DNA of 64,000 nucleotides from a virus: positions 1-64,000 of the IMG/VR virus record IMGVR_UViG_3300032050_000004. The stretch is one strand, 5' to 3'. Shown one piece after another: positions 24,262-62,321 of this stretch; position 1 is the first letter of the stretch; each line of letters begins with the position of its first letter. Under the pieces are notes generated by a model. That model saw only the letters and a program-made list of their open reading frames with translations. It ran no database searches and was not told the origin of the DNA. The position numbers and the translations under genes are program-made.

Positions 24262-24699
24262 TTACAACCCATCAACAAAGTATTCAATTTCAAAATCAAT
24301 ACCCAAATGATCAAATTTACCGATTTCCTTATCATTGAGTATATCTTGCATTATATCATCAAAAAGACCTGTGTATTCTGAGTTTACCCTGTCTTTTTCC
24401 TGTTGCGTGGAGTTTGTTTTTTTAGGACCTTCAAGTTGTAATTTAAAGAAAACATTAATATTATTAGAAAAATGAACTTGAGTGGTGATGGACGTACCAA
24501 CACCATTTAGATATTCATTTACAAATCGGTCTTCAGATCTTTTTTTAACAATTCTATTAAATCCCTGCTTTAGTATCTCATCTCCGATTGATTTAGAAAT
24601 AGAAGCTGCTGCCATTTCCAAGTTCTCATTTTCGGAAAATGCATTTTCATTTAAATGTTTCCTGATGGTGTTTTTAATAAATTGTCTTAAATTTCTCAT
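24262..24699 (-). CDS. Leader-bearing putative virion protein
   Basis: 145 residues from the ATG at 24699 (MRNLRQFIKNTIRKHLNE, then NAFSENE). The N-terminal amphipathic helix ending LNE at 16-18 fits the virion-targeting/prohead-cleavage leader. The rest is unrecognised, with VQVHFSNNINVFFKL-type beta strands. Late motif TTATAAATAG at 24702-24711. Confidence 0.65.
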   Translation of the reverse strand: MRNLRQFIKNTIRKHLNENAFSENENLEMAAASISKSIGDEILKQGFNRIVKKRSEDRFVNEYLNGVGTSITTQVHFSNNINVFFKLQLEGPKKTNSTQQEKDRVNSEYTGLFDDIMQDILNDKEIGKFDHLGIDFEIEYFVDGL

Positions 24700-24701
24700 G
24701 G

Positions 24702-24711
24702 TTATAAATAG
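24702..24711 (-). promoter_or_regulatory. Late-type promoter motif
   Basis: CTATTTATAA in the transcribed sense, 2 nt before the ATG at 24699. Confidence 0.5.
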
Positions 24712-24728
24712 TAAGGAATTTGACAAAA

Positions 24729-24756
24729 TAAAAAAACCCACGTTTTTGGCGTGGTT
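24729..24756 (-). terminator. Terminator after the muramidase gene
   Basis: AACCACGCC/ACGTGGGTT-type stem with T7 on the minus strand, starting at the stop codon. Confidence 0.75.
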
Positions 24757-25886
24757 TAAACTTCTCCGTATTCTATATTGCCCAATCTATTTAGCCAACC
24801 TTTACCATGAACGGCAAAAGTATCAGAGGATTTATATCTGATGGCTCTTTGTTTTTTTATTTGTTTGAATAATTCTTCTTGGTTTTGTTTATTGGCTATT
24901 TTGATCCAGATAACAGAAAAGGGATCATCAGCCGAAGAAATATCAACCCCCATATTCATTAGGGCATTTCTAAGGGATTCTTTGGTTCCGGAAGAACCTT
25001 GGTTTACGCAACCATCATATAAAATATTAGCTATGGACTGATTTGAAAAATGATGAAGGTTGTTTTGATCCCAATAATCTTTCTTATAGATTTTCAATGC
25101 ACTGTCATAGGACAGGTTTCTCATATCTTCTGCTTTTGGCAATCTACCAAGGTATTTTGCTAAAATAGGAGCTGAGATACCATATTTGGTTCCGACAAAT
25201 CTTTTACCATAACCTTTAATATTGATCCAGTTTCCTTTATCTTTTCTATCACCTGAATAACCAGCTTCATATATTTTAACATGTTTTTGGGCTTCATTGA
25301 AAGAGGATCTTCTTGTAGATGTTGGTAAAATTCCACTTTTTTCTTTAGTATCTTGGGGTTCTTGTATTTGTTCTTGATCTTGGTTTTGGACAACTTGAAC
25401 AAATTCCTTTGCCATAACCGGATCAATTTTGTTTTGAGGAGATCCAACCAAAGTAGAAAGAGAAGCTACACCCAAAAACACTGCAGCAGTAGAGATTATA
25501 ATTTTCCTTCTAATTTCTTTAGGAAGGTTTTTAATCTTCTCTAAGAACTTATAAAAATACTCTTGGACTTTTTCTTTAGGTAGTTTATCAACGAAGGATT
25601 TAATTTTCTTTGCTAGTTCGTCTGCAAAAGTTTCTTTTGAGGATGCTCCGGACAAATCCCATTGAAAAGTCAAAGGTAATTCATCTGGAGTGCCCTTTTT
25701 AATTTCTGGATCCCATTCATAGGTATTTGGACTTGTCCATTTACCATTTTCTTTAAGGAGGGAATATAAACCGTCAAATATCTGGTTAAATTCTCTTTCC
25801 AGCATTAAACTCTGAAAATCCTTATCCATAGAGATTATATTTTCTCTGATAAGGGATCTTAGTTTATATTCAGAATTTTTTTTCAT
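24756..25886 (-). CDS. GH108-type muramidase with virion leader and membrane helix
   Basis: 376 residues from the ATG at 25886. Residues 1-15 (MKKNSEYKLRSLIRE) form the virion leader with an IRE cleavage candidate. Residues 128-147 are a hydrophobic helix. From about 200, YEAGYSGD (catalytic-type E207), TKYGIS, then IYKKDYWD, DGCVNQG and GWLNRL follow the order of glycoside hydrolase family 108 plus its C-terminal peptidoglycan-binding part. Such enzymes cut the peptidoglycan glycan chain. The leader and helix suggest a virion-associated or capsid-cargo lysin rather than a plain endolysin. Confidence 0.85.
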   Translation of the reverse strand: MKKNSEYKLRSLIRENIISMDKDFQSLMLEREFNQIFDGLYSLLKENGKWTSPNTYEWDPEIKKGTPDELPLTFQWDLSGASSKETFADELAKKIKSFVDKLPKEKVQEYFYKFLEKIKNLPKEIRRKIIISTAAVFLGVASLSTLVGSPQNKIDPVMAKEFVQVVQNQDQEQIQEPQDTKEKSGILPTSTRRSSFNEAQKHVKIYEAGYSGDRKDKGNWINIKGYGKRFVGTKYGISAPILAKYLGRLPKAEDMRNLSYDSALKIYKKDYWDQNNLHHFSNQSIANILYDGCVNQGSSGTKESLRNALMNMGVDISSADDPFSVIWIKIANKQNQEELFKQIKKQRAIRYKSSDTFAVHGKGWLNRLGNIEYGEV

Positions 25887-25892
25887 AGTCTC

Positions 25893-25902
25893 AAATAAAT
25901 AG
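25893..25902 (-). promoter_or_regulatory. Late-type promoter motif
   Basis: CTATTTATTT 7 nt before the ATG at 25886. Confidence 0.55.
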
Positions 25903-26017
25903 GATAAAAAACCTTTAAAAAAAAACAAATTTTCATAGAAAAAAAACACAAGATACAATAAAAAAAATTATATTTATTATATAGACAAAACAATTTTCCA
26001 AACACTATAATTTAAAA

Positions 26018-27442
26018 ATGAATAATAATGCAGAGAGCAGGTTAAATGATCTTGAGAGTTTTTTAAGTGAATCAGCGATAATTTCAAAAGCAGATTCAAA
26101 GGGCAAGATAACTTATGTAAATAAAAGGTTTGAAGAAGTTTCTGGATGGAAGCTTGAAGAGGTATTGGGCAAGGACCACAATATTGTAAATTCCGGAAAG
26201 CATCCAAAAGAATTTTGGTCGGAGATGTATAGGGTTGTTACAAAAGAAAAAAAGGTTTGGAATGCAGTATGCACCAATATTTCAAAAAGCGGTGAATTAT
26301 ATTACGTTGATACGTTCATAAAAGGGAGTTTTGATACTGAGGGTAATTTGACTGAATTCATGTCTATTAGACAAGATGTTACAGACCTTAAGAAAAAGGA
26401 ACTAGAAATTCACAATAGAATGAGTGCAATAAATAAATCTAACGCAGTTATTGAGTTTGATTTAGAGGGTAAAATTATTTTTGCCAATAATTTATTTATA
26501 GAAACTATGGGATATTCTTCACAGGATGAAATAATTGGGAAGCATCACAGAATTTTTATAGACGATGAATACGCAAAAAGTGATGATTATTTTCTTTTTT
26601 GGAAAAAGTTAAGAGATGGTATATTTTTTTCTGGTGAAATTTCTAGAATTCGAAAAAATGGGTCTTTAATATATTTACAGGCCACTTACAATCCGATTAT
26701 TGATGTAGACGGTAAGATTTATCGTATTATGAAAATTGCCATTGACATTACTAATTCATATGAGCAAAAGAAAGAAATCGAAAAGAAAAACACTTATTTA
26801 GAACATGCAGCAAAAATATTGAGACATGATATGCATTCTGGTATCAATACTTATATGCCAAGAGGTTTAAGTTCTTTAGAAAGGAGATTAAAACCTGAAG
26901 ATATTATATCATTAAAAATTGAGGCACCAATTAAAATGATTAAAGAAGGTTTAAAACATTCTCAAAAAGTATATAAAGGTGTTTATGAATTTACAAATTT
27001 AGTTAAAAAAGATGTTGTTTTAAACAAATCGGAATGTGATTTAAAAAATATATTATCTGATTACTTATCATCAACAGCCTATAGTAGCCAAGTTATTATT
27101 GATAGTTTACCAACCATTGAAGTTAACGAAGCTTTATTTTGTACTGCAGTTGACAACTTGATTAGAAATGGTTTAAAATATAATGATTCGGATACTAAGT
27201 TTGTTAAAATATATTCAGAGGGAAATTATATTTATATACAAGATAATGGTAGGGGAATCACACAAGAAGATTTTGATCACTTATCTAAACCATATATCAG
27301 AAAAGAAGGGCAAAAAGAATCTGGTACTGGTTTAGGGTTAAATATTTGTGTTGCAATTTTAGAGGAACACGGATTTGTTATTACCTGTGAGAAAAATGAA
27401 ATAGGAACAAAAATGAAAATAAAAACAAAACAAACAAAATAA
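26018..27442 (+). CDS. Two-PAS sensor histidine kinase
   Basis: 474 residues, no membrane segment. PAS1 about 12-130 (SKADSKGKITYVNKRFEEVS), PAS2 about 135-255 (IEFDLEGKIIFANNLFIETM), a short linker helix, an H-box (ILRHDMHSGI) near 272, then an HATPase domain with N-box DNLIRNGLKYN, G1 DNGRGI and G2 GTGLGLNI. It should autophosphorylate on the histidine and pass phosphate to the adjacent response regulator. First gene of a three-gene operon (13-nt gap, then a 4-nt overlap). A two-component system is unusual in a phage. Signal sensed is unknown. Confidence 0.92.
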   Translation: MNNNAESRLNDLESFLSESAIISKADSKGKITYVNKRFEEVSGWKLEEVLGKDHNIVNSGKHPKEFWSEMYRVVTKEKKVWNAVCTNISKSGELYYVDTFIKGSFDTEGNLTEFMSIRQDVTDLKKKELEIHNRMSAINKSNAVIEFDLEGKIIFANNLFIETMGYSSQDEIIGKHHRIFIDDEYAKSDDYFLFWKKLRDGIFFSGEISRIRKNGSLIYLQATYNPIIDVDGKIYRIMKIAIDITNSYEQKKEIEKKNTYLEHAAKILRHDMHSGINTYMPRGLSSLERRLKPEDIISLKIEAPIKMIKEGLKHSQKVYKGVYEFTNLVKKDVVLNKSECDLKNILSDYLSSTAYSSQVIIDSLPTIEVNEALFCTAVDNLIRNGLKYNDSDTKFVKIYSEGNYIYIQDNGRGITQEDFDHLSKPYIRKEGQKESGTGLGLNICVAILEEHGFVITCEKNEIGTKMKIKTKQTK

Positions 27443-27455
27443 AAAAAACAAAAAA

Positions 27456-27893
27456 ATGATAGAATCAATTTTATTAGTAGATGATGAGGATTTATTCCAC
27501 TTAGTATTTGAGGACGCTTGTTCATTACTTGATATAAGTTTGTCTTTAAACTCATTAAATAGTTCTGACGAAGCTGCTAAACTATTTCAAAAATGGTTTC
27601 AAAGTGGTAATGATAATAATAAGCCTGAATGCGTATTTGTTGACTTAAACATAATTGGTAGTTCTTTTGATGGTATTGAGTTAATTAGAAAAATTAATTT
27701 TGAATATGGCAATAACGTAGTTGTAGGTATTATTTCATCATCAAATGAACCGGAAGAACAAGCAAAAGCAGTTCAGGCTGGTGCTCAATTTTGGATTATT
27801 AAATCTGACGATATTGAGCCACGTTTAGATGAGTTCAGAAAAGATTTTGAAGGTTATAAAAAAAGAACCTTACCATTTAAAGTTTATAAATGA
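27456..27893 (+). CDS. Single-domain response regulator
   Basis: 145 residues, one receiver domain. Acidic pair D9/D10, phosphoacceptor D63 (CVFVDLN), switch serines at 94-96 and K116 (FWIIKSD) are all present. No output domain, so it works like CheY or Spo0F through protein contacts. It overlaps 27890-28564 by 4 nt, suggesting that gene product is its partner or target. Confidence 0.9.
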   Translation: MIESILLVDDEDLFHLVFEDACSLLDISLSLNSLNSSDEAAKLFQKWFQSGNDNNKPECVFVDLNIIGSSFDGIELIRKINFEYGNNVVVGIISSSNEPEEQAKAVQAGAQFWIIKSDDIEPRLDEFRKDFEGYKKRTLPFKVYK

Positions 27894-28564
27894 TAAGATT
27901 AAACCAAAATAGTGAAGATGAGTTAATTAGAATTCTTGATTCCAAAAGTATTGGACTTGAGGGGAATATTATTAAATTATTTGAAACTGATAATGATGAA
28001 TTTAAGTCGTACTTAACTAGGTGTGTAGAAAAGGATAAAGAATCAAGACGTAAAAGATTAGAGATAACAAAAAAAGTTCAAATACAAAATAATGAGTTAT
28101 CTAATTTAAATCTAGAAAATCAAAAAATGTTAGAAAATCTTCAGTCAACATTAAAAGAAGCTGAAGAACAAAAAATAAAAATTAAAGCACAAAACGAAGA
28201 GTTAATTGAATGGAGGGTAGAAAACGAAAAAATTCAACAGGATCTACAGAAGGAAATGATTAAATCTGAAAATGCAAGAATCCAAGCAGAAGAAGCGAAG
28301 AAAAACGCAATAAATGATTTAGATATACTCCAAAAAAGAAACCAAACAGAACTTATTTCCACAATCGTTAAATTTTCCTTATGCATCATTGTTGGTGTTG
28401 GCATTTTTACTACAGGGGTATATATCTTTACTGTTATACAGGGCAAGGATACTCAAATTATAGGTGCCGTTTGGTCAAATACATTTGGGATTCTTTTAAC
28501 CAATGCTTTTTCTATTGTTGGAACCATCATGGGTGTTAAATATGCTTTGGAAAAAAAAGATTAA
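27890..28564 (+). CDS. Coiled-coil membrane protein of the signalling operon
   Basis: 224 residues. About 45-165 is a long coiled coil (QNNELSNLNLENQKMLENLQ and onwards). Two membrane helices follow at about 164-184 (FSLCIIVGVGIFTTGVYIF) and 193-217. Residues 1-40 could dock other proteins. No known domain. It is the likely effector or anchor of the phage two-component system because of ATGA coupling with the receiver gene. Confidence 0.75.
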   Translation: MIRLNQNSEDELIRILDSKSIGLEGNIIKLFETDNDEFKSYLTRCVEKDKESRRKRLEITKKVQIQNNELSNLNLENQKMLENLQSTLKEAEEQKIKIKAQNEELIEWRVENEKIQQDLQKEMIKSENARIQAEEAKKNAINDLDILQKRNQTELISTIVKFSLCIIVGVGIFTTGVYIFTVIQGKDTQIIGAVWSNTFGILLTNAFSIVGTIMGVKYALEKKD

Positions 28565-30467: not shown

Positions 30468-31031
30468 TTAAGATTCATTACTAAACCTTAGCATACCTTC
30501 ATCGTCAATATAAAGATCTACTTCTTTTAAGTTATGAGCTGCAGTCATTAATTGATTTTCATTTTCGTAGGTATAGTCAAAAAAACCTGAACCGTGTCTA
30601 TTTCTGGTAAGCCAAATATCATGTCCCAGACGTTCTAAACCATTTTCATTCACAGCTTCATTTACAGCTTCAATTCCTGCTAATTTTATAAACTTTTTAA
30701 TATCAAGATAAGCTTGAATCAAAGAGTCTGTGGTAATATAATCTTTACTAAAAGAATCAACTCCTTTGGATTTAAGTTCTTTTTGCATTCTGATGATTTT
30801 ATCTATTTCGCTTTCATCTTCATCATCGTCGTCATCATCGTCAAAATCATAATCTTTTTCTGAATTCCCTGTATCTTTTAAATTTTCTTCTTCTGTCCAA
30901 AGTGCAGCTTCTAAATAGCCGTTCATAATTTGTTTTATTTCAGATTCGGTCAAATCATTCATATCTTCATTTTCTTTAAGGATACCGGCAAGAACTTGCA
31001 TTCTTTTTATTTCATTGATAAGATTGCTCAT
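30468..31031 (-). CDS. Leader-bearing putative virion protein, acidic
   Basis: 187 residues. Leader MSNLINEIKRMQVLAGILKE with the cleavage candidate ILKE at 17-20 (the LAGI class shared by five proteins here). The middle has an aspartate run (YDFDDDDDDDEDESE). The C-terminal half (GLERLGHDIWLTRNRHGSGF) resembles small phage proteins with HDFWLTRNGHGAGF, family role unknown. Late motif at 31034-31043. Confidence 0.7.
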   Translation of the reverse strand: MSNLINEIKRMQVLAGILKENEDMNDLTESEIKQIMNGYLEAALWTEEENLKDTGNSEKDYDFDDDDDDDEDESEIDKIIRMQKELKSKGVDSFSKDYITTDSLIQAYLDIKKFIKLAGIEAVNEAVNENGLERLGHDIWLTRNRHGSGFFDYTYENENQLMTAAHNLKEVDLYIDDEGMLRFSNES

Positions 31032-31836: not shown

Positions 31837-32682
31837 ATGAAAAATAAAAACTTATTGTCTGAAATACATAGAATGAAAGAATTGGCTGGGATTATTTCAG
31901 AGTCCAGTATGTTAAATGAGGATTATTTGGAATTAAAGTCCATAGCAAAACAACTATATACTTTATTAAAAAGTAAAGGATATGATGTTCGCTTAGTTGA
32001 GAACAGCAGTAAAAGTAAATATGCTGGTGGCACAACTTTGGCTGGACAAAAGTATCTAAACAACAAAGGTGGCAGTGTGGAGATACATCAATTTTCCGAT
32101 GTTGAACAAATTGGTGTTTTTGTACCTGCTTATACCATAATGTATCAATTTATAAAAAATCCAGCAAACCATAAATATGTAGAATCCGTAATAGCAAAAA
32201 ATCGTCCGGATCTTGTGGGAAAAAACATAGGACTAGATGATACTGAAAAACATTGGACTCATATAAAAAATTTCATGTACGGAAAATCTGGAAAAATTGC
32301 TGAAATTTCAGATTTCATGAAAGATCAAGGAATAAGACAAACCATAGGTGCTTTAGGTAAGGAATTACAAAATGCAATTAAGTCAAAATACCCAACTATG
32401 TTATTCAGTTTTGAAGACGATGCAACTGGGTATTCAATGTATTTTGCTGAACCAAAAACAGCTAAGGGTGGTATTAAAAATCCAAATCAGCGTCCTAATG
32501 CACCGAAGCCTGAGGGCAATGACCAACAAAAAATGGCAGCTGAAGATTCTCAGATAAATGAAAGAGGTTTGGCTTTTAACCAAAAGACTTTGACTCCTAG
32601 GACTGACGGAAGTGATTTACCATATCATGCACCAGTAACAACAAACAAACCTCATCCAAATAGAAAAAATAGATTCAAATGA
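31837..32682 (+). CDS. Leader-bearing putative virion protein
   Basis: 281 residues. Leader of the LAGI class with cleavage candidate IISE at 19-22. The body is alpha/beta with GSVEIHQFSDVEQIGVFVP and a Pro/Asn-rich tail (NPNQRPNAPKPEGNDQQK). Its ATGA junction with 32679-33089 couples two leader-bearing genes whose first eight residues are identical, indicating duplication of the leader. Confidence 0.7.
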   Translation: MKNKNLLSEIHRMKELAGIISESSMLNEDYLELKSIAKQLYTLLKSKGYDVRLVENSSKSKYAGGTTLAGQKYLNNKGGSVEIHQFSDVEQIGVFVPAYTIMYQFIKNPANHKYVESVIAKNRPDLVGKNIGLDDTEKHWTHIKNFMYGKSGKIAEISDFMKDQGIRQTIGALGKELQNAIKSKYPTMLFSFEDDATGYSMYFAEPKTAKGGIKNPNQRPNAPKPEGNDQQKMAAEDSQINERGLAFNQKTLTPRTDGSDLPYHAPVTTNKPHPNRKNRFK

Positions 32683-33089
32683 AAAATAAAAATTTATTAA
32701 GCGAAATACGCAGGATGCAAGAACTTGCCGGAATAATTACTGAGGGTAATGTAAATGAAAATTGGTATAGTGTAAAAAAATGGGATGATGCAGGTCAAAA
32801 GTATGTTAGTCATTTAGGTGGAAATATTGATGGCTTGAAAGAACAGCCCAAGTTCAAAGTAAAAGATGTTGTAAAAATCAAAGCATATCAAAAAGAGTAT
32901 ATGGCTCAAATCATAGGAATTTTTGCGAATTATGATACTCAGGAAATATTATATGGAGTGAGGATTTTTTCAGATCCTACAATTCCAACAAGTAGTACAT
33001 CGCTTGATAAAATCGAAGAAGTTGATATAATTGAAAAATTGTCTGAGATACCAGATAATATAAAAAACAATCCAAAATTCGAGAAATAG
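32679..33089 (+). CDS. Leader-bearing putative virion protein
   Basis: 136 residues. Leader ends ELAGIITE (cleavage candidate at 19-22). The rest has FKVKDVVKIKAYQKEYMAQI, resembling a KOW/SH3-like barrel, and an acidic C-terminus. Overlaps the preceding gene by 4 nt and is followed by a terminator. Confidence 0.68.
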   Translation: MKNKNLLSEIRRMQELAGIITEGNVNENWYSVKKWDDAGQKYVSHLGGNIDGLKEQPKFKVKDVVKIKAYQKEYMAQIIGIFANYDTQEILYGVRIFSDPTIPTSSTSLDKIEEVDIIEKLSEIPDNIKNNPKFEK

Positions 33090-34432: not shown

Positions 34433-34858
34433 ATGTCAAATAAAATTACATTAAGCGAATTAAGAAAACTTATAAAACAAGTAATAAATGAAGGTCCATA
34501 TGATGATATAGATTTCGGTTTTTTAGATCAAGAAGATCAAGAAAAAAATGCTTTGAGGATTCAGGCATCTGAAGAATTTTATAATAAAATGGTTAAGGAT
34601 TTAGATATTTTGAAAGAAATATATCGTTTGTTCACTTCTTCTAATGGTGAAGAAAATGCATTTTCAAAGTTTAAAGATTCACAATACTATAGCAGGGTTG
34701 AACATTATATGGAAGATTTATATAAAAATGTTGAATACAGAAAAAAATTTGGAGATGGGCAGTTATTAAAAATATGTGAATCAACTTTTGAAAAATTCTT
34801 TAGTGCTGCTTATGAAGCTGCCAAAAAGAGACACGAAAGAAAACAAAGTGAATTATAA
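34433..34858 (+). CDS. Leader-bearing putative virion protein
   Basis: 141 residues. MSNKITLSELRKLIKQVINE is a textbook leader of the IR/IK class with INE at 18-20. The body is helical and charged. No recognised domain. Terminator at 34865-34889. Confidence 0.68.
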   Translation: MSNKITLSELRKLIKQVINEGPYDDIDFGFLDQEDQEKNALRIQASEEFYNKMVKDLDILKEIYRLFTSSNGEENAFSKFKDSQYYSRVEHYMEDLYKNVEYRKKFGDGQLLKICESTFEKFFSAAYEAAKKRHERKQSEL

Positions 34859-34864: not shown

Positions 34865-34889
34865 CCCTCAAATTGAGGTATTTTTTATT
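34865..34889 (+). terminator. Terminator between convergent genes
   Basis: CCTCAA/TTGAGG stem with T6. Confidence 0.65.
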
Positions 34890-35740
34890 TAAGATCCAGA
34901 AACCCAAAAATCTATTTTAGATACTTTTTCACCTGTTGTTTTTTCAAACCATCTTTTTACTACTTCTTTAATATCTTTATCGCTCATGGTAAAATTCATT
35001 TTGACAAGTCTAAAAAGAGTGTCATCAGCATATAAATAATTATTTTCCTTTTTTATACCCAGAACTTCAGATTCTACTTCGAGGTCAAAAACAAATTCGT
35101 CATTCTTATCGAAGTATTGTATTCCGTAAACTTTTTTACCCAATTTATCAACTGCATATGATTTGGATTTTAGTTCACCCAAGTCAAAATCTAAGAAATC
35201 ATAAACAAGATCTTCATCACTTTGTATTTCTAATTCTCCAGAAGAAATTCTATCTAAAACACTCTTTTCGTGAGGTTGCAGACTCTTTTCTCCATATTTT
35301 GCCACCTTGTCTAATATATCATCAAGTAAATCATCTTGATAACCTTCGTTTATGGATTTTTGTTTTTTTAATCTCTCTGTTTTCTTTTTAGATTCTTCTT
35401 TTTTACTTTCTGCATATTCCAAAGCTCTTTTCAATCTACTTTTAGTTTCCGGATCTTTTGCGTTTTCAAAAGCAGCTCTTACTCTTTGGTGAATAAGATT
35501 TATTATTTGAGATTGTCTTTTGTGTGATTTGGACTTAAAACTAGGTTTATTAAGTGTATCGGCTATATCTTCTTTTGTTCTAAATTTTATTGAAACTGTA
35601 TCATTAGGATTTTCATCTGTATATAATCTTCTACCAGAACCTTTTGGTTTTTTGCCTGTACCTACTTCAGGATCAGATTCATTTAATTCAAATGATTCTT
35701 TAATAATTTGTCGTATATATTCTCTTAAATTTGACTCCAT
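34889..35740 (-). CDS. Leader-bearing putative virion protein
   Basis: 283 residues. Leader MESNLREYIRQIIKESFELN with IKE (13-15) or LNE (19-21) as cleavage site. Then a lysine-rich helical stretch (RLKRALEYAESKKEESKKKT) and an acidic beta-rich C-terminal half. Unknown role. Late motif AATAAATATT at 35744-35753. Confidence 0.68.
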   Translation of the reverse strand: MESNLREYIRQIIKESFELNESDPEVGTGKKPKGSGRRLYTDENPNDTVSIKFRTKEDIADTLNKPSFKSKSHKRQSQIINLIHQRVRAAFENAKDPETKSRLKRALEYAESKKEESKKKTERLKKQKSINEGYQDDLLDDILDKVAKYGEKSLQPHEKSVLDRISSGELEIQSDEDLVYDFLDFDLGELKSKSYAVDKLGKKVYGIQYFDKNDEFVFDLEVESEVLGIKKENNYLYADDTLFRLVKMNFTMSDKDIKEVVKRWFEKTTGEKVSKIDFWVSGS

Positions 35741-38188: not shown

Positions 38189-38476
38189 ATGAATAAAATA
38201 GAATTAGAATATAAATTAAGAAATCAGATTAGGTCTATTTTAAGAGAATCTGTATCAGAAAATAGAGAAATTGCTTTAGGTCATGAAGAAATTGATGCTT
38301 TAGAAAAAACTCTAAAACCAGATGAGTATGTTTGGTTAGATGACAGAACCGGTAATTTAACTGGTGAAAAAGTAACAAAAAAAGAATATCTAAAAAGGAT
38401 GTTGAGACGTGCAGTAGATGATAAAAAGTGGGACAAAGTCCAATCTGCTATTTTATTTTTAGATACTCAAATTTAA
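38189..38476 (+). CDS. Leader-bearing putative virion protein
   Basis: 95 residues: leader MNKIELEYKLRNQIRSILRE (LRE 18-20), then VSENREIALGHEEIDALEKT and a basic KKEYLKRMLRRAVDDKKWDK helix. Unknown role. Confidence 0.65.
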   Translation: MNKIELEYKLRNQIRSILRESVSENREIALGHEEIDALEKTLKPDEYVWLDDRTGNLTGEKVTKKEYLKRMLRRAVDDKKWDKVQSAILFLDTQI

Positions 38477-51224: not shown

Positions 51225-51704
51225 ATGAAAAGTTTAAACAATACAATCAGAAAAATAATTAAGGAAACTATAGATACTGCAGGTAATTTTGAAACTAAAA
51301 TTACTAAAGGTGTTTATATCCGTGGTTTAGAGAAATTTTTTGATATTGAAAAGAGTGATCTGGATTATGATTGCGACTTTTCAATACTTTGGAGTTTGGA
51401 TATTGAATCTAGGTCTTGGGGTTTAAAATCAATTATACCAAATGTTTCAAGTATAAGAGGTACTATTAAATGGAGAGTAATAAAAGATCTTTTAGAGAAA
51501 GAAGTTTACGATTTTATTAAAAGTAAAAGCAATTATGAGGATGAAGATTATTTGGAGGGTGAAATGGAATTTAACTCACTAAATAAATTCGAAGGAAAAG
51601 AATGGATAATTTTAGATGAAGATTTTAAAATTAAAGATAGTGGTGAGCTTTTTCCTTCAGAAATAGATATAGATTTCTATAAAATGGAAATAACCATCTC
51701 TTGA
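51225..51704 (+). CDS. Leader-bearing putative virion protein
   Basis: 159 residues from the ATG at 51225 (MKSLNNTIRKIIKE, IKE at 12-14); a longer frame overlaps the FkbM gene. Body acidic and beta-rich, unrecognised. Confidence 0.65.
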   Translation: MKSLNNTIRKIIKETIDTAGNFETKITKGVYIRGLEKFFDIEKSDLDYDCDFSILWSLDIESRSWGLKSIIPNVSSIRGTIKWRVIKDLLEKEVYDFIKSKSNYEDEDYLEGEMEFNSLNKFEGKEWIILDEDFKIKDSGELFPSEIDIDFYKMEITIS

Positions 51705-52402: not shown

Positions 52403-52804
52403 TTATTTTATGTTAATATGGTCTCTTTTATTCCAATAAGAAGCAGGACCATAATAAGTGCAAATTTCTTCTCCGGGTAAAATCTTTCTTTTAGCTTTAT
52501 ATTTAAAGGTTCCTCTATTTTCATCTGTTTCCCAATAAGCATTAGAATCTTCCGAGTGATTGTAAATGCATCCACAACCAAAAGGAATTACTTGTTCTTT
52601 CCAATCTATTGATGCTGGGAATAAAAATCTATAATCATTCAATAATTCTTTATTACAATCCTTCTTTTCTTCTCCTCTTTGAAATAGAGTGAAATAAGGA
52701 GTTTCCTCTATTAATTCATCTTTTTCAATTGTTTCTGATGCAAAAACGCCCCAACCATGAATGGGTGATCTATCGATATAGATTTTAGTCGGTAATTTTA
52801 TCAT
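52403..52804 (-). CDS. SET-domain protein
   Basis: 133 residues from the ATG at 52804. SPIHGWGVFASETIEKDELI (13-32), YNHSEDSNAYW (81-91), AKRKILPGEEICTYYG (104-119) are the three SET signatures, including the NHS and GEExxxYYG pseudoknot motifs. SET enzymes methylate protein lysines using SAM. It lacks pre/post-SET zinc regions, like the small viral vSET. The lysine-rich proteins at 58959 and 60116 are plausible substrates. Confidence 0.88.
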   Translation of the reverse strand: MIKLPTKIYIDRSPIHGWGVFASETIEKDELIEETPYFTLFQRGEEKKDCNKELLNDYRFLFPASIDWKEQVIPFGCGCIYNHSEDSNAYWETDENRGTFKYKAKRKILPGEEICTYYGPASYWNKRDHINIK

Positions 52805-52849
52805 TTTTATAAAAAACACATATTTATAATAAAAATACAGTAAAATTTA

Positions 52850-54373
52850 ATGTATTCAAAAAATCAAATAAAAAAATTAATTAAGGAACAAGTCAAATTC
52901 ATATTTGAAAATGATTTGCTTTTGGAGGCTGATTATAAAAGAAAAATATTAAGTAAATTTACAATACCAGAATCTACAGCTGAATATGTATCCGAAAGAT
53001 TAGGTAAATTATCATTATGGTTTTTAAATGCTTTAGAAAAAGAAGTATTTGACTCTAAGGAGGATTTTATAAAATATATAAATGAAAGACCTTTTTGGAT
53101 TAGATCTAATTATGATAATACTATAATAAAAATTTTAGATTGGCTTAGACACCCTTTAATTGCTGGTACGGTTGATTTGAAGAATTTGACATTACAACAA
53201 GCTATAGAAAATTCAGAAAAATTTCATGATGAATTAAAGACTTTAGGTGGTGAAATAGATTATAAAGAAGAGAATAAAAAATTAGTTCAGTATGATAATA
53301 AGTTTTATTGGGCTGAAATACCCGGAAATTATTCTGATGAAGAATGCAAAAGAATGGGTCACTGCGGAAGAACATCAAGAGGAGATATGTTATTTTCTTT
53401 AAGATCTGACATACCTTATGGAAAAGGACACACATTAAATGATTCACATTTGACTGTTGCGTATAATTCAACAGATGGAATAATTTATCAAAGTAAGGGA
53501 AAGAAAAATGCTAAACCATCTCAAAAATATTTTCCTTATTTTTTCGATTTGATTATGAGGTTGCCAGAATTTAACGGTTTTGGAAGAGAGTATGCAAGTT
53601 CTGAAGATATAAATTTTGATGATTTCTCAAATGATCAATTAATAAAATTGTACAACAAATTTCCCAAAGCATTCAGTACCTATAAGTCACAAAAAATTTT
53701 ATTTGATAGGGGAATAATTAAAGAAATTACAGCTAAGAGTAAAATAATTTTAGATCTTGATGTGGATGATATTGATAGTTATATTCAAACTGGAAGAGAT
53801 TTAAGGAATGATATAATAAAATTAATACTTCAAGATCCTTATGATTTATATGATCCTTATTATGAACACTCTAATTGGAAGTATTCTATTGATTATGTCG
53901 ATGAAAAAAATAAAAAAACAATATTAGAATACATTGAAAAGAAATTCCCTAATATAGATATAAGTTCAAATGATATTGAAGAAATAATAAAAGAAAATGA
54001 GGATGAGCTTGATGATATAATTAGAGCAATCAATAGAGCCTCTGGAGATTGTGAATCATCAGACTATCAAAATTATTGTTATAAACAATTGAAGAATACT
54101 TTAGAATTTTGGGGTAATGTAGAGGAACTAGATGATACTGGTGCTAAAATTGAAGTTGATATTGAACAAATTCTTGATAATGTTGATGCAGAATATGTTT
54201 CTGATGCTATGGAAAGATGTGATGATGACAGAGAATGTGCTTTTCACGAATTAGTTTCAAATGGAGATATAGATAAACCTAGATTTTATTTAGATGATAG
54301 ATATACACCATCTTGTAATAGAGAAGATTTTAATTCTTATCTAGTAGATTCATTAGATTTTGAACTTTCATAA
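52850..54373 (+). CDS. Large leader-bearing virion protein with HCG domain
   Basis: 507 residues. Leader MYSKNQIKKLIKE (IKE 11-13), with a second candidate FIFE. Around 155-230: FYWAEIPGNYSDEECKRMGH, CGRTSRGDMLFSLRS, HLTVAYN, IIYQSKGKKNAKP. This HCG/SLR/QxKGxxNxxP arrangement occurs in phage proteins and in PcfJ-like proteins, activity unknown. C-terminal 250 residues acidic, with several cysteines. Counterpart of 35781-37703. Confidence 0.7.
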   Translation: MYSKNQIKKLIKEQVKFIFENDLLLEADYKRKILSKFTIPESTAEYVSERLGKLSLWFLNALEKEVFDSKEDFIKYINERPFWIRSNYDNTIIKILDWLRHPLIAGTVDLKNLTLQQAIENSEKFHDELKTLGGEIDYKEENKKLVQYDNKFYWAEIPGNYSDEECKRMGHCGRTSRGDMLFSLRSDIPYGKGHTLNDSHLTVAYNSTDGIIYQSKGKKNAKPSQKYFPYFFDLIMRLPEFNGFGREYASSEDINFDDFSNDQLIKLYNKFPKAFSTYKSQKILFDRGIIKEITAKSKIILDLDVDDIDSYIQTGRDLRNDIIKLILQDPYDLYDPYYEHSNWKYSIDYVDEKNKKTILEYIEKKFPNIDISSNDIEEIIKENEDELDDIIRAINRASGDCESSDYQNYCYKQLKNTLEFWGNVEELDDTGAKIEVDIEQILDNVDAEYVSDAMERCDDDRECAFHELVSNGDIDKPRFYLDDRYTPSCNREDFNSYLVDSLDFELS

Positions 54374-54470: not shown

Positions 54471-55340
54471 TTAATTACCACCCATGGTAACACTAAAACC
54501 AGATTTAGTCATCGTTTCTTCACCACCTGCTTTATCAACTATTTTTATAGTTTCTTCAAAAGAACCTGAACTTTGTGCTTTTGAATAAGTGGCAGAAACA
54601 ACACTCCTGCCCTTTTCCAATAGATCTTGCCATACATTAAAAACACTTTCCTTGTATTCTGGACCTGCTTCTGAATCTATAACAGTTCTTGTGTTTGCAT
54701 GTATGTTTTGAGCTTTTTGTAAAGCTGTTTGAACAACATCTTGAACATCATTACCAAAACCATTCATAGTTGTTGTGTGACCATCTCTCAAATCAACTAA
54801 TATTTTAATTGCTTTCATTCTTTGCATATCATCACTAGTATTGACCCATATTTTTTTTGTATCTTCTAATATTCCGATAGCAATGTTTAATTCATGTTTC
54901 GGTATTGGGGTTCCGGTTGCTGCTGCTTTAGCAACTGTGCAAAATACTATCAATAAAACAAAAACTATAATTGTTATAATTATCAACTTGAAAAGTAAAG
55001 GATATTTATTTGAGAAATTCTTTAATAACTTTACTGCTGCACCTATTGTCCAACTTATGAATTGTTTTACTTTTGAAAGTATACTAAATCCAACAGAATA
55101 AGCTTGTAATAAAAAAGTGTTAAGATAATTAGCTATCTTATCTACAAAATTTGTTTTTAAATCTGTAAATATGTTTTCACTAATTAATTCAGAATCCAAT
55201 ATTTCATAAAATTCTTTTTCAGTAATTTTGTTTTCACAAAATAAATTTACAGACTTAACAGGAACAAAATTTTCATTATTTAACCTAATTCCAGCTAATT
55301 CTTGCATTCTGCGTATTTCTTTCAATAAAACCTTATCCAT
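54471..55340 (-). CDS. Leader-bearing membrane-spanning virion protein
   Basis: 289 residues. Leader MDKVLLKEIRRMQELAGIRL, candidate cut after LNNE (20-23). Hydrophobic segments at about 78-100 and 111-138 (LFKLIIITIIVFVLLIVFCT). The C-terminal 150 residues are soluble, with TMNGFGNDVQDVVQTALQKA. Could be an ejected protein that enters the host membrane. Strong AATAAATA-type late motif upstream. Confidence 0.65.
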   Translation of the reverse strand: MDKVLLKEIRRMQELAGIRLNNENFVPVKSVNLFCENKITEKEFYEILDSELISENIFTDLKTNFVDKIANYLNTFLLQAYSVGFSILSKVKQFISWTIGAAVKLLKNFSNKYPLLFKLIIITIIVFVLLIVFCTVAKAAATGTPIPKHELNIAIGILEDTKKIWVNTSDDMQRMKAIKILVDLRDGHTTTMNGFGNDVQDVVQTALQKAQNIHANTRTVIDSEAGPEYKESVFNVWQDLLEKGRSVVSATYSKAQSSGSFEETIKIVDKAGGEETMTKSGFSVTMGGN

Positions 55341-55403: not shown

Positions 55404-55892
55404 ATGGATTTAAGAAAAATTGTTAGACAAATAATTAAAGAAGAGGCTGAATCCCAAGAATTACAAACAGATTTTGGGGATAAAGACAAAGCTAGAAGAG
55501 CTCTAATAGCTCTTTCAAAGGGTTTGATACCTGATCAAGAAATAAAAGTACAAGGAAGCTTAAGTCCTGAATATCCTGATGAATCAGGTCATTACAGTGA
55601 AGATGGAGAAGTTGAGATTGAATATAGTTTTGAGGGTTCTAAATATTTATTAATATTATCAATAACTGGAGATTACTATTATAAAGAGGGTTTTGGAGGT
55701 GATTATTGGCAACCACCTGATGAAGGTGAATGGTCTGACGAAGACATTACATTAAATGATGATGAATTTAGTGTAGGAGATCAAGACGATAACGAATATA
55801 ATTTCAATGTAGATGAATTGGGGTCAACATTTAAGAGGGATATGGAGAAATTTCTTTTAGGATTTTACGACGCAATGGATTCTTCACTATAG
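55404..55892 (+). CDS. Leader-bearing putative virion protein
   Basis: 162 residues. Leader MDLRKIVRQIIKE (IKE 11-13). The body is very acidic and beta-rich with GFGGDYWQPPDEGEWSDEDI, resembling phage proteins with DYWxPPxE. Unknown role. Late ATATTTATATTATATAA-type motif upstream; terminator at 55922-55953. Confidence 0.68.
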   Translation: MDLRKIVRQIIKEEAESQELQTDFGDKDKARRALIALSKGLIPDQEIKVQGSLSPEYPDESGHYSEDGEVEIEYSFEGSKYLLILSITGDYYYKEGFGGDYWQPPDEGEWSDEDITLNDDEFSVGDQDDNEYNFNVDELGSTFKRDMEKFLLGFYDAMDSSL

Positions 55893-56837: not shown

Positions 56838-56838
56838 T

Positions 56839-57624: not shown

Positions 57625-57831
57625 CTATTTTCTTGGACCATAATGATTGTTATGGTTACAATTCCTACTATGTATGTGATTTTTTTTAGGATAATAACTA
57701 TGCCAGTAATTGCTGTTACTTAATCTCCACTCAATACGTAAATATCTTTTAGGTTTTTTTATAGATGTTTTATTTTCAGCAACACAACCTGAAAAAAAAA
57801 TTACAAATAAAAAAAATAAAAAAAACTTCAT
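57625..57831 (-). CDS. Small histidine-rich lipoprotein
   Basis: 68 residues: MKFFLFFLFVIFFSGC (cysteine 16), then a basic His/Asn-rich tail (HSYYPKKNHIHSRNCNHNNH). Possibly metal binding. Start overlaps the stop of 57831-58616 by one base (TAATG). Confidence 0.65.
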   Translation of the reverse strand: MKFFLFFLFVIFFSGCVAENKTSIKKPKRYLRIEWRLSNSNYWHSYYPKKNHIHSRNCNHNNHYGPRK

Positions 57832-58616
57832 TAAGCAATGTATTGATTCAATTCATATCTACCAGATTCCATTCTATAAATCTGAATATGCAATTTTTTT
57901 CTAGATGGTTTACCATCTTTTTCTAAATCAAAACTCGCTTTTTTTGTATCTCCGTAATTTATTCCACCAATGCCAAAAAGAAAAAATTCTCTTTCTTGAT
58001 CGACGATCTCAAATCCCTTTTTAGTCGTTTTTTCAAGAACACTATCTAGTGCTTGAGCTAAACTTTCAAAATAAATCTCTTCAGATTTAATTTCTTTGAA
58101 CAATGCTTGACCTTGAGTGGCAGCAGCTTGAGCACCAGATGCTGCAGCAGCTGGATCAGCCAAATTAGGTTTGAAAATATAAGCCTTGAATTTGTCGTTT
58201 CTTTTTTGAACTTGCTTAGATTGAGGATCTGTGATTTGATAAGCTAATTGAAAATCTTTTATTTCACCGTCTTTAGGTCCAACTAATTTGCTACCAGCTA
58301 CAAATTTTTGTATATCTCCGGCAAAAACCGGATTAACTAAAATATTAAAACCACCAACTGGATTTCCATTATAAAACATTATTACATTTTTTGCTTTTGG
58401 ATTTGATGCCATGGCAAATTTTGCAAGGTTAGTAGTTGCATCATTAAGGTTTTTAGAGATAGCTATTTTATATCCTAATGTTTTAAAATATTTCTGTATT
58501 GCTGGAAATGTTTGCGTATCGAACTTCTGTTTAAATGCAGCAGCATCGACTTCTTGTAAAATTCCAGCCAATTCTTGTAATTTTTTCTTAAAATTTTCAG
58601 TTAATTTCATTTTCAT
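57831..58616 (-). CDS. Leader-bearing putative virion protein
   Basis: 261 residues. LAGI-class leader with ILQE at 19-22. The rest is an alpha/beta fold with NVIMFYNGNPVGGFNILVNP, an Ala/Gln-rich linker (AAAASGAQAAATQGQA) and a beta C-terminus. Unrecognised. Late motif CTATTTATTT at 58629-58638. Confidence 0.68.
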   Translation of the reverse strand: MKMKLTENFKKKLQELAGILQEVDAAAFKQKFDTQTFPAIQKYFKTLGYKIAISKNLNDATTNLAKFAMASNPKAKNVIMFYNGNPVGGFNILVNPVFAGDIQKFVAGSKLVGPKDGEIKDFQLAYQITDPQSKQVQKRNDKFKAYIFKPNLADPAAAASGAQAAATQGQALFKEIKSEEIYFESLAQALDSVLEKTTKKGFEIVDQEREFFLFGIGGINYGDTKKASFDLEKDGKPSRKKLHIQIYRMESGRYELNQYIA

Positions 58617-58628
58617 AATACCTTATGA

Positions 58629-58638: not shown

Positions 58639-58641
58639 TAT

Positions 58642-58670: not shown

Positions 58671-58675
58671 GTTAT

Positions 58676-58957: not shown

Positions 58958-58958
58958 T

Positions 58959-60077
58959 TTAATAGAAATAAACGTCAACATCGAATCCTTTTCCAGTTGA
59001 GCTTTGACATCCTTCATCATCCAAAATGCCGTAATCACCGTAACAGATATCCCAAACGAATTGCTGATTAAAAACCTTACCAACAATAATGCTCAATTTT
59101 TTTTCATCGAAAACTTCACCGGGATCCAACTCAAAAGATCCTTCAGAATATGCACCCCTGTCTACGGAACCCGTGTATAGATAACCTTTTCCCTTGTTGT
59201 CTTTCTTGTTTGGAACAAACTCGTCGTAAAAGCTTTTTTCCAGTCCCTTATATGTAACATTCCTTGTAATCTCCTCAACATAATCTCCATTCTTATATAC
59301 TGTGACATTTAACACAGAACTGTCAGAGTAGCATGCTTTTTCTTCGTGTAGAACATCATCTTGATCATACCATTTTCCAAAGTGAGTGTCTTCAGCCTCT
59401 TCATCATAATCAAAGTTCCAAAGATGATCCGAAAGTTCTGACTGAGCATCTGAATCTTCATCAGCGAATTTTGCCTTCCAGTACTTATATTGAGTATCGG
59501 TCATTTCAGCTACGCAGTTTTCCTTGCCGTAACCATAAACATGGAAGTCGATTTTGTAAACATCTGTTGAGGTATCAGAATTACTATTGTTATCATTTGA
59601 TAACATAGAATTAAATTCTTTTTCATCAATAATGTTGATACTAGAAATCTTTTTTGCTTCTTTCAATTTACTTCCAGCTTTTTCGCCAATAACAAGATAA
59701 TTTAGCTTATCACTTACACCACTAAGAATCTTGCCACCAAGGTCTTTAACTTTTTGCTCTGCATCTTTACGTTGCATAGTTGTCAAAGTTCCCGTAAAAA
59801 GAAAGTTTTTACCCGAAATTAAATTAGATACATTTTCAGCTTTAGTATCTAAAGTATTTTTTTTCTTGGTCGTAGTTTTAGAAACAGTTTTTTTCACCAC
59901 TTTTTTAGCAGGTTTTTTTACGACCTTCTTTGCTACCTTCTTAGCAACTTTTTTAGCAGGTTTTTTTACGACCTTCTTTGCTACCTTTTTAGCAACTTTT
60001 TTCGCTGGTTTTTTTACTGCTTTTTTTGCTGGTTTCTTAGCAACTTTTTTCGCTGGTTTTTTTGTTGTTTTAGCCAT
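58959..60077 (-). CDS. Histone-H1-like tail plus BRCT plus shared C-terminal domain
   Basis: 372 residues. Residues 1-72 are Lys/Ala/Pro/Val repeats (KKPAKKVAKKVAKKVV), like bacterial H1-type proteins. Residues 86-160 are a ligase-type BRCT domain (GKNFLFTGTL, KVKDLGGKI, LNYLVIGEKAGSKL, KEFNSML). Residues 173-372 are an acidic domain (VYGYGKENCVAEMTDTQYKY, HLWNFDY, THFGKWYDQDDV, YLYTGSVDRGAYSEG) shared with 60116-61009. A DNA-compacting or DNA-bound scaffold is likely. Nothing comparable in the rest of the window. Confidence 0.85.
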   Translation of the reverse strand: MAKTTKKPAKKVAKKPAKKAVKKPAKKVAKKVAKKVVKKPAKKVAKKVAKKVVKKPAKKVVKKTVSKTTTKKKNTLDTKAENVSNLISGKNFLFTGTLTTMQRKDAEQKVKDLGGKILSGVSDKLNYLVIGEKAGSKLKEAKKISSINIIDEKEFNSMLSNDNNSNSDTSTDVYKIDFHVYGYGKENCVAEMTDTQYKYWKAKFADEDSDAQSELSDHLWNFDYDEEAEDTHFGKWYDQDDVLHEEKACYSDSSVLNVTVYKNGDYVEEITRNVTYKGLEKSFYDEFVPNKKDNKGKGYLYTGSVDRGAYSEGSFELDPGEVFDEKKLSIIVGKVFNQQFVWDICYGDYGILDDEGCQSSTGKGFDVDVYFY

Positions 60078-60115
60078 TTTGTCTATTTGTTTTTGGATTT
60101 GTTTTTTCTGTTTTT

Positions 60116-61009
60116 TTAAAAGAAATGTATTTCTGCATAGAAACCTTTTCCGGTTGAATCATAGCAACCTTCATCATCTAAATATTCTCCGTCATATATA
60201 ATTCCCCAAACAAACCTATCGTCAATAATTCGACCAATATTCAAACTTATTTTAGAAACATCAAAATTCTGTCCTTCGGGCAATTCAAACTCTCCATAAC
60301 TATACATGCCACGATCTGATGAATGAGTATAAAGATATGCTTGACCTTTATCATTTTTTTTATTTATTACAAATTCATCATAAAATTCTTTTTTTATCTT
60401 ATCATCTGTAACATCAATTTCAATTTCTTCTATTTCCTGATCATTCTTGAAGACGTTTATTACAAGTCTGGTACCTTCAGTATAATATGCTCTTTCAGCA
60501 TGAACTATAGAATCTTGATCATACCATTTACCAAAATGAGTTTCTGGTATTTCTGAGTCGTAATCATAATTCCACAAATGATCCTTCAATTCCTGTTGAG
60601 CATCATAAGAATCTTTTTTATATTTCTTTTTCCAATATTTTATCTGTGTATCATTCAAGCTGGTCACACAATTTTCGGCACCATAACCACCAATATGGAA
60701 TTTTATTTTATACTTGTCTTGTGTTTTGATTTCTGGAGTAATTATTTTTTTCTTAGCAACAGGTTTTTTATTTACAGTCTTTACAACTTTTTTGGAAACT
60801 TTTTTTGCTGTTTTTTTTACATTTTTTTTTGCTGTCTTAGTAGCTTTTTTTACTGTTTTCTTAACAGTTTTTTTTGCCGTTTTTTTTACGGGTTTAACTG
60901 TTTTCTTAACTGCTTTTTTTGTAGTTTTTTTAGCTGGTTTTGCCTTTTTAGCTGGCGAAGCTTTTTTTGCCGGTTTAGTTTTTTTCGGCATTGTTGCTTT
61001 TGTTGTCAT
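60116..61009 (-). CDS. Histone-H1-like tail plus shared C-terminal domain
   Basis: 297 residues from the ATG at 61009. Residues 1-95 are Lys/Ala/Pro repeats (KKTKPAKKASPAKKAKPAKK onwards). The C-terminal 195 residues (IGGYGAENCVTSLNDTQIKY, HLWNYDYDSEIPETHFGKWY, YLYTHSSDRGMYSYGEF) pair with the C-terminal domain of 58959-60077, without a BRCT. The two are duplicates differing by BRCT gain or loss. 38-nt gap to the next gene. Confidence 0.85.
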   Translation of the reverse strand: MTTKATMPKKTKPAKKASPAKKAKPAKKTTKKAVKKTVKPVKKTAKKTVKKTVKKATKTAKKNVKKTAKKVSKKVVKTVNKKPVAKKKIITPEIKTQDKYKIKFHIGGYGAENCVTSLNDTQIKYWKKKYKKDSYDAQQELKDHLWNYDYDSEIPETHFGKWYDQDSIVHAERAYYTEGTRLVINVFKNDQEIEEIEIDVTDDKIKKEFYDEFVINKKNDKGQAYLYTHSSDRGMYSYGEFELPEGQNFDVSKISLNIGRIIDDRFVWGIIYDGEYLDDEGCYDSTGKGFYAEIHFF

Positions 61010-61013
61010 GGTT

Positions 61014-61499
61014 TTATTTTGTTTGAGAATAGTATGGATTAACAATTGGATTCATACTTGCTTTATTATAAGAGATATTTGCAACTGATATTTCTTCAAT
61101 TTTAGTATAATCAAAATTAATGTTTTGATTTTTTATAAATTTTACAATGTGATAAAAATTGTGGTGATCTGAAGGCGTTTTGTCTTCAATAGATGTTATG
61201 TAAGGTATGTTAGAATTTGCTTCGGAAACGACTGGTACCATACCAACTAGTTCAATGTTTTCAAAATTTTTTGACTTATAAACAACATAATATCCAGAAA
61301 CAGTATCTCCTGAAATTTTCCAACTGATTAATAAATTATTTCCAATATCTGAAATTTTTGCACTTCTTACAAATGTTTGATTAGGATTTATTATGTGATA
61401 TTGATTCAATATAGACATTATACTGCCCTGATTGTATTGGGCAAATGAATTATAGAAACTACCTACTAATAATAAAAAAATTATAAATGTTTTTTTCAT
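61014..61499 (-). CDS. Exported Fn3-like protein
   Basis: 161 residues. Signal peptide 1-20 (ends SFAQ). LLISWKISGDTVSGYYVVYK is a typical fibronectin type III strand pair. Probably periplasmic or surface-exposed. 4 nt before 60116-61009, so co-transcribed with the lysine-rich proteins, an odd pairing. Confidence 0.7.
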   Translation of the reverse strand: MKKTFIIFLLLVGSFYNSFAQYNQGSIMSILNQYHIINPNQTFVRSAKISDIGNNLLISWKISGDTVSGYYVVYKSKNFENIELVGMVPVVSEANSNIPYITSIEDKTPSDHHNFYHIVKFIKNQNINFDYTKIEEISVANISYNKASMNPIVNPYYSQTK

Positions 61500-61570
61500 G
61501 ATTCAATTACTTATTTGTAAGGGCTAAATTAGTAATTTTTCACAATAGAGCCAAATATATTAAAAATGGG

Positions 61571-61581
61571 CTATTTATATT
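61571..61581 (+). promoter_or_regulatory. Late-type promoter motif
   Basis: CTATTTATATT, 14 nt before the ATG at 61596. Confidence 0.55.
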
Positions 61582-61595
61582 AAAGGTACAAAATT

Positions 61596-62321
61596 ATGAA
61601 CTTGAAAATAGTTGATATTTTAAGAGAAGGTTTAAAAGACAAAAATAATTCACAAGTTGCTGATTTTAAACCAGTTAAGTTGGGTTATAAATACGATGAA
61701 TTAAAAGAATTTATTGATAGTGAAACTATGGATATTCATTATAACAAACATTATAAAGGATATGTAAAAAAATTGAATGAGCTTTTGAAGGAAAAGGGTT
61801 TTAAATTAAAAAAGGATGATGGAATAATCAGTTTAATATCTAGGGTTAATGGCTTGGGGAAAAAAATAAAAAATCAAGCTGGTGGTGTATATAATCATGA
61901 ATTTCTTTGGGAAATCATGACCCCTGATAAAGAAAAGAGAATTTTTGATGGTGAGATTAAAAAAATTATAGAGAATCAATATGGATCATTAGAAAAGTTT
62001 ATAGAAGAATTCTCTAATGAGTCAAAAAGCAAATTTGGTTCTGGTTGGTGTTGGGCAATTTTGAAATCTAACAACAGAATAAAAATAATGACCACGTCCA
62101 ATCAGGATAATCCAAAAATGAATATTTTTCTAACTAAGGATAAAAACGAAGAAGGTAATATTATTTACAAACCAATAACAGGTAAAATAATTTTAGGTCT
62201 AGATCTTTGGGAACATTCATATTATCTTAAATACAGAAATAAACGAGATGACTATATTAAAAATTTTTGGAAAGTAGTTAATTGGAAATACATAAACGAT
62301 CTAATAAAAAAAGAGTCCTAA
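61596..62321 (+). CDS. Leader-bearing Fe/Mn superoxide dismutase
   Basis: 241 residues. Residues 1-11 (MNLKIVDILRE) are a short virion-type leader. All four metal ligands of Fe/Mn SOD are visible: H48 (MDIHYNKHYKGYV), H101 (GGVYNHEFLW), D203 and H207 (GLDLWEHSYYLKYRNKR). GSGWCWAIL and the C-terminal FWKVVNWKYIN also fit. SOD converts superoxide to peroxide and oxygen. An insertion around 85-95 and Cys in GWCW are atypical. The leader suggests packaging in the virion. Confidence 0.9.
   Translation: MNLKIVDILREGLKDKNNSQVADFKPVKLGYKYDELKEFIDSETMDIHYNKHYKGYVKKLNELLKEKGFKLKKDDGIISLISRVNGLGKKIKNQAGGVYNHEFLWEIMTPDKEKRIFDGEIKKIIENQYGSLEKFIEEFSNESKSKFGSGWCWAILKSNNRIKIMTTSNQDNPKMNIFLTKDKNEEGNIIYKPITGKIILGLDLWEHSYYLKYRNKRDDYIKNFWKVVNWKYINDLIKKES

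Follow-up and report, generated by a model that had tools for sequence, protein, structure and literature searches.

Short N-terminal leaders in the window

The first 64,000 bases (bases 1-64000, hereafter the window) of the virus record IMGVR_UViG_3300032050_000004, a 222-kb genome of 222,069 bases, encode a series of proteins that start with one of two types of short leader, 11-22 residues in length. All 18 coordinates at which a preliminary description had placed such leaders were translated and inspected, and the leaders proved to be present and non-random. The translations of genes 30468, 31837, 32679, 54471 and 57831 (genes are designated by their lower coordinate) share the class A consensus MKxxLLxEIRRMQELAGIxxE, and the class B consensus LRxxIRxIIxE is convincing in 10 genes of the window. 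Class B starts were scored by a leave-one-out procedure against 4,524 internal blocks of 32 residues. In the following list "score" refers to this procedure, "box" to the heptamer TATTTAT upstream of the gene and "site" to the count of (I/L)xE sites after the class A motif.

24646-24699, minus strand: class B leader MRNLRQFIKNTIRKHLNE, gene 24262-24699 (score above 99.98% of internal blocks; box at 20 nucleotides)
25842-25886, minus strand: borderline class B leader MKKNSEYKLRSLIRE, GH108 lysozyme gene 24756-25886 (score at 0.7% of blocks; GH108 at residues 204-297; box at 15 nucleotides)
30972-31031, minus strand: class A leader MSNLINEIKRMQVLAGILKE, gene 30468-31031 (motif position, box, site)
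31837-31902, plus strand: class A leader MKNKNLLSEIHRMKELAGIISE, gene 31837-32682 (motif position, leader-only match to 32679, box, site)
32679-32744, plus strand: class A leader MKNKNLLSEIRRMQELAGIITE, gene 32679-33089, which overlaps the 3' end of 31837-32682 and has no box of its own (motif, leader-only match, site)
34433-34492, plus strand: class B leader MSNKITLSELRKLIKQVINE, gene 34433-34858 (box, score)
35696-35740, minus strand: class B leader MESNLREYIRQIIKE, gene 34889-35740 (box, score)
35781-35831, plus strand: class B leader MNLRLEIREIIKSILNE, gene 35781-37703 (box, score)
37662-37703, plus strand: class B-like tail KKIREIIRELLNK at the C-terminus of protein 35781-37703, which also has the N-terminal leader (one of the C-terminal matches given below)
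38189-38248, plus strand: class B leader MNKIELEYKLRNQIRSILRE, gene 38189-38476 (box, score)
39535-39576, plus strand: class B leader MNLLRKKIKEIIQE, gene 39535-40104 (box, score)
43571-43618, minus strand: class B leader MSKIKLINLIRSTIKE, gene 42992-43618 (box, score; body homologs elsewhere without leader)
50361-50396, plus strand: internal class B-like stretch ELRKKIREILSE, protein 49713-50594, a possible member (sequence; box of the gene at 12 nucleotides)
51225-51266, plus strand: class B leader MKSLNNTIRKIIKE, gene 51225-51704, which comes after 50600-51220 and has no box of its own (score)
52850-52888, plus strand: class B leader MYSKNQIKKLIKE, PcfJ-like protein 52850-54373 (box, score; body homolog with class A at genome 195650)
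55287-55340, minus strand: class A leader MDKVLLKEIRRMQELAGI without the usual (I/L)xE, gene 54471-55340 (motif position, box)
55404-55442, plus strand: class B leader MDLRKIVRQIIKE, gene 55404-55892 (box, score)
58551-58616, minus strand: class A leader MKMKLTENFKKKLQELAGILQE, gene 57831-58616 (motif position, box, site)
61596-61628, plus strand: weak class B-like leader MNLKIVDILRE, Fe/Mn superoxide dismutase (SOD) gene 61596-62321 (score at 4% of blocks; N-terminal extension of ~18-20 residues relative to solved SODs; box at 24 nucleotides)

About 15 of the 18 proteins named beforehand are firm members (five of class A and ten of class B), two are weak and one was dropped. The ten firm class B genes (24262, 34433, 34889, 35781, 38189, 39535, 42992, 51225, 52850 and 55404), out of the twelve originally assigned, score at or below 0.11% of the blocks. 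Gene 45455 (LRTKIRDIVYNDY), listed as a looser class B carrier, was rejected, as it lacks the glutamate site.

The window-trained class B matrix was applied to unseen data consisting of a further 80 kb of this genome, three related contigs and Flavobacterium phage immuto. It matched 17 of 732 N-termini and 2 of 4,196 internal blocks (p = 9e-13), with ~0.6 matches expected at the same threshold among shuffled N-termini. Outside the window, nearly all class A matches lie within ~12 residues of a protein's N-terminus or ~17 of its C-terminus. The proteins QQO92105 and QQO92104 of immuto, which is an isolated phage, have class A and class B-type leaders. Between 31837 and 32679 the similarity is restricted to residues 1-34 (65%), with none elsewhere, and the leader appears to be a detachable cassette.

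At C-terminal ends, class B-like tails gave three matches among 671 proteins. A 499-residue protein (L003:16575-18074; genome 196575-198074) has a class B-like C-terminal tail ESKIRKIVSKLIRENFSK that is conserved in the near relative G001; part of this protein resembles ArdC by eye and gave no Pfam hit.

The prohead genes, the class A motif and the TATTTAT box

The absence of a prohead protease gene from the genome had been named beforehand as decisive against targeting of the T4 type. A gp21-type prohead protease was found in the phage's own genome (Peptidase_S77, genome 177606-178022, E 7e-31, above the Pfam cut-off), and Peptidase_S77 was also detected in 11 of 12 related records. Just upstream lies the gene of a 141-residue core-type protein (genome 176344), whose N-terminus MKISKSDLEQLIKEEAIKM is a class B-type start (MKISKSDLEQLIKEEA), and just downstream that of a gp22-like scaffold (genome 178258-179769), whose C-terminal end EERRRMRMLAGIVKPINE is the class A motif. 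The names core protein and scaffold rest on the gene order and on the relatives of the scaffold, neither protein having a Pfam name. The scaffold is followed by a gp23-type capsid protein, which over the aligned pieces shares 43% identity with its counterparts in Microcystis phage Mel-JY01 and immuto; its relatives occur in immuto, Mel-JY01 and RM378 and, weakly, in Straboviridae phages. With the order core protein, protease, scaffold and gp23-type capsid protein, which is the mark of T4-like phages of the gp23 capsid lineage, the virus is a large T4-related (far-T4) phage.

The scaffolds of relatives end in RRMQQLAGIIK, RWQKLAGIIK and RMKKLAGIVK. A scan of 2.9 million viral contigs with a DNA pattern for [RS]RM[KQ][QE]LAGI revealed 59 class A stretches, of which 45 are C-terminal (nearly all in scaffolds), 13 are N-terminal on other proteins and one is internal; the proteins with the C-terminal stretches L033 and L040 look unrelated. 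An (I/L)xE site directly follows the motif in 26 of 27 distinct N-terminal leaders versus 1 of 26 distinct C-terminal tails (background 10.5%; p = 7e-13, which overstates independence because the leaders are related sequences). According to a reading of the listing, most C-terminal tails carry the site immediately ahead of the motif instead (IVE, ITE, ISE, LFE), so that the layout is site, motif and end in the scaffold and motif, site and protein in the cargo. Since the site follows the N-terminal but not the C-terminal copies, the cargo leader consists of the scaffold motif and an added protease site, the letters of which vary (LNE, ITE, LKE, IAE, IVE).

The leaders are not exact copies of the tail of their own phage's scaffold, since they keep RRMQxLAGI where the tail reads RMRMLAGI, RMQKLANII or RWQKLAGI. 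The T4 gp22 tail was likewise rejected as a class A match, since it ends in VSVYAKVASRF. The window-trained matrices gave no match when applied to a head region of T4 and to 50 kb of sequence from a Vibrio phage of the Straboviridae; in the huge phage LR756508 (484 kb) they detected ~10 class B starts near the capsid gene.

The heptamer TATTTAT is located at most 70 nucleotides upstream of 15 of 17 leader genes versus 8 of 80 other window genes (p = 3.6e-10, an optimistic value because the motif was derived from a comparison of these very genes), and of 1 of 44 genes in the first 24 kb. The independent value comes from outside the window, where the box precedes 18 of 32 leader genes versus 147 of 700 others (p = 2e-5). 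Both leader genes without a box (32679 and 51225) are second genes. The box also precedes the genes of the core protein, the protease, the scaffold, the tail tube and the probable tape measure protein, and it may represent a late-promoter element. The T4 late promoter TATAAATA was considered as the shared element and is not clearly enriched. The probable tape measure protein itself (2,505 residues; L192:5515-13032, genome 145515-153032) starts with MDANQVKQLIKEL, a class B-like sequence that is perhaps due to chance.

Putative cargo bodies and neighbouring genes

Homologous protein bodies were found with a class A leader, with a class B leader or without any leader. Protein 52850 (class B) and the protein encoded at genome 195650 (class A) have a common body (35% over ~186 residues), which recurs without leader in a protein of G001; the similarity of this family to PcfJ is weak (E 3e-4, below the cut-off). 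The family of 42992 carries the PHROGs name "ParB C-terminal domain", and its body recurs in other phages without the class B leader of 42992. In a Vibrio Straboviridae phage a body of this type starts with MYSFSEFINLAE, which by eye resembles a T4-type leader. No relatives of 42992 were found in IMG/VR. Its assignment as an ADP-ribosyltransferase similar to T4 Alt was rejected, the resemblance being restricted to a motif, the single-sequence fold being unusable (predicted local distance difference test, pLDDT, 44.5) and the profile search against solved structures being empty.

A CCA-adding-type nucleotidyltransferase (genome 185588; PolyA_pol, E 4e-35) bears the leader MEIRELIKKVIKE, and its alignment with solved enzymes does not begin before about residue 26. 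In the Vibrio phage with the MYSFSEFINLAE start, a probable homolog encoded close to the capsid gene begins directly with the enzyme motif. The identified cargo domains are GH108, Fe/Mn SOD, the "ParB C-terminal domain" family, the PcfJ-like family and the CCA-type nucleotidyltransferase. The earlier statement that enzymes carry the leader as well holds for this nucleotidyltransferase, which is encoded outside the window; the two enzymes identified within the window, the SOD and the GH108 protein, are the weakest members. Other phage SODs were rejected as support for the SOD leader, as those in IMG/VR often are zinc-peptidase-like fusions (HEWVHEW type) or have other N-termini. Among these SODs (L216-L295) an N-terminal HEWVHEW-type zinc-peptidase-like domain is frequent, and an (I/L)xE recurs just ahead of the SOD domain.

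In BLAST comparisons with G001, which may be incomplete, most of the window cargo has no body homolog, in contrast to an identity of 62-87% for the head-module proteins compared. The cargo resembles an accessory set of rapid turnover behind a leader that stays constant. A second recurring motif, similar to LPYHAPVTT, follows an arginine-rich stretch close to the C-terminal end of 31837-32682 and occurs twice in a class B-leader protein (genome 158065; L192:18065-18823); BLAST also gave short matches to a segment of the G001 scaffold.

Further genes of the window include a two-component-like cassette at 26018-28564 (plus strand). Its PAS-PAS-histidine kinase gene is preceded by a TATTTAT box and followed by 27456, which encodes a receiver-like protein, and 27890, which encodes a membrane protein with a coiled coil. 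Two paralogs with long histone-like KPAKKxxKK N-termini, the first of which seems to have a BRCT domain, are encoded at 58959-61045 (minus strand) and are possible DNA-binding virion proteins. The product of 52403-52819 (minus strand) looks by eye like a SET-domain methyltransferase, which is unusual for a phage. The protein encoded at 40106-42514 (minus strand) combines a Reprolysin-type metallopeptidase with PKD-like repeats and a C-terminal sorting domain of the Por (type IX) secretion system. Since it is apparently built for a type IX secretion system of the host, it points to Bacteroidota, which probably include the host.

Predicted head targeting and known systems

The leaders are most probably head-targeting (capsid-targeting) sequences that can be cleaved off; in this far-T4 phage, the cargo would be packed in the head and ejected. 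T4 provides the precedent both for targeting leaders and for the L/I-X-E cleavage rule (PMC9026906, PMC5694885). The proposal of a T4-type, protease-cleaved leader on many proteins, already made in the preliminary description, gains support from the protease gene, from the occurrence of the same motifs on the core protein and the scaffold and from the box common to head and tail genes; the placement of the motif, the added site and the leader swapping are consistent with it. The cargo would be made late in infection with an N-terminal docking peptide, which in class A is the module that also forms the C-terminal tail of the gp22-like scaffold and in class B has the type of N-terminus found on the small core protein encoded next to the protease. 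By means of this peptide the cargo would enter the prohead's scaffold core, the simplest assumption being that scaffold tail and leader bind one partner. The gp21-type protease would then cut after (I/L)xE and release the mature protein inside the head, and the mature cargo would be packed with the DNA and ejected into the host. What is said here of docking in the core, cleavage, packaging and ejection is inferred from T4.

That the leader proteins are instead minor parts of the prohead core or scaffold, which are cut and largely discarded at maturation, seems unlikely. It is true that core protein and scaffold have the same motifs, that these are C-terminal in a few proteins and that T4 core proteins are cut to fragments that mostly leave the head (PMC9026906). 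The bodies, however, are of diverse kinds, among them enzyme domains (CCA-type nucleotidyltransferase, PcfJ-like, GH108, SOD), and together with the lack of G001 homologs for most of the cargo, set against the conserved head module, this diversity fits expendable cargo better than core parts. It is quite improbable that the shared N-termini are amphipathic helices that bind something else (a membrane, one another, or a factor of replication or RNA polymerase) and that the (I/L)xE is coincidental. Class B does look like a generic basic amphipathic helix, but 58 of the 59 class A stretches are scaffold tails or N-terminal leaders, the site follows the motif in the N-terminal and not in the C-terminal copies, and the TATTTAT box is common to leader and head genes. 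If the leaders were ordinary mobile 5' ends of genes (promoter and first codons), spread by recombination without a targeting role, this would explain why leader and upstream box travel together and why the leader is the sole shared part. This explanation is very improbable in view of the two classes with conserved residues amid varied flanks, the conservation of the same motif at the opposite end of the scaffold and the retention of the site with different letters.

Several observations weigh against head targeting by these leaders. The class B-like start on the probable tape measure protein, which is not a head protein, is odd for a head-targeting signal and would suit another binding partner. 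Among the members proposed earlier, 24756 is a borderline class B protein, 61596 does not exceed the background level by its sequence alone, and 54471, although it has the class A helix found in all five proteins of that class, lacks an (I/L)xE site because LAGI continues as RLNNEN. The class B matrix contains the glutamate, so that its site is partly built in and provides weaker evidence than that of class A, and within genome positions 64,001-140,000 the search was confined to the DNA pattern of class A. The leaders of relatives are nearer to the common consensus than to the scaffold tail of the same phage. Finally, for a lineage with scaffolds ending in RWKKLAN(L/I)K no convincing matching N-terminal leader was found among the at least 120 stretches listed; tail mimicry is therefore not universal.

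We incline slightly towards a general docking code in this T4-like branch, in which the scaffold-tail module is also used on cargo N-termini (with the protease site) and sometimes on C-termini, and the cargo occupies the docking site of the scaffold. Phage proteins that enter the host with the DNA are normally known only via virion proteomics of cultured phages. A leader recognisable by its sequence (scaffold tail and protease site) would allow the prediction of injected proteins for uncultured phages: since one tag type copies the scaffold tail, likely injected proteins may be readable from the sequence, and if the docking code is true, one could list the set of proteins that an uncultured phage injects, including candidates for host take-over and anti-defence. 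It would also offer a handle on T4-type scaffold docking, as tail and leader should share their binding partner. In the open-access literature, within a limited coverage, no description of these leader motifs was found; the new points are the two leader classes, the scaffold-tail type of class A, the C-terminal carriers, the large carrier set and the shared box.

The scaffold of herpesviruses binds the major capsid protein through its C-terminal tail, which resembles the present case in being a short conserved peptide at the scaffold's C-terminus beside protease sites; to our knowledge, no use of this tail as a cargo leader has been described. The giant phages SPN3US and phiKZ have many inner-head proteins that are cut by the prohead protease and are thought to be targeted by propeptides (PMC5694885). 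The phage described here would share with them inner-head or ejection proteins with propeptides for this protease, but their propeptides often exceed 100 residues and they have no confirmed gp22 counterpart, in contrast to the leaders of 11-22 residues and the recognisable scaffold found here. The closest likeness is with the capsid-targeting sequences of T4 (IPI, IPII, IPIII and Alt, cut by gp21), which are likewise short N-terminal leaders on functionally unrelated, accessory and variable cargo, follow the (I/L)xE rule and depend on an S77-type protease of the head gene cluster. The leader sequences differ, as do the termini of the T4 core genes. Here there are two leader classes, of which class A matches the C-terminal tail of the scaffold, unlike the T4 gp22 tail, and there are at least 15 firm carriers in the window versus a handful in T4, some proteins having the motif C-terminally. 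The system thus appears to work like T4 capsid targeting without its leader being a sequence homolog of that of T4.

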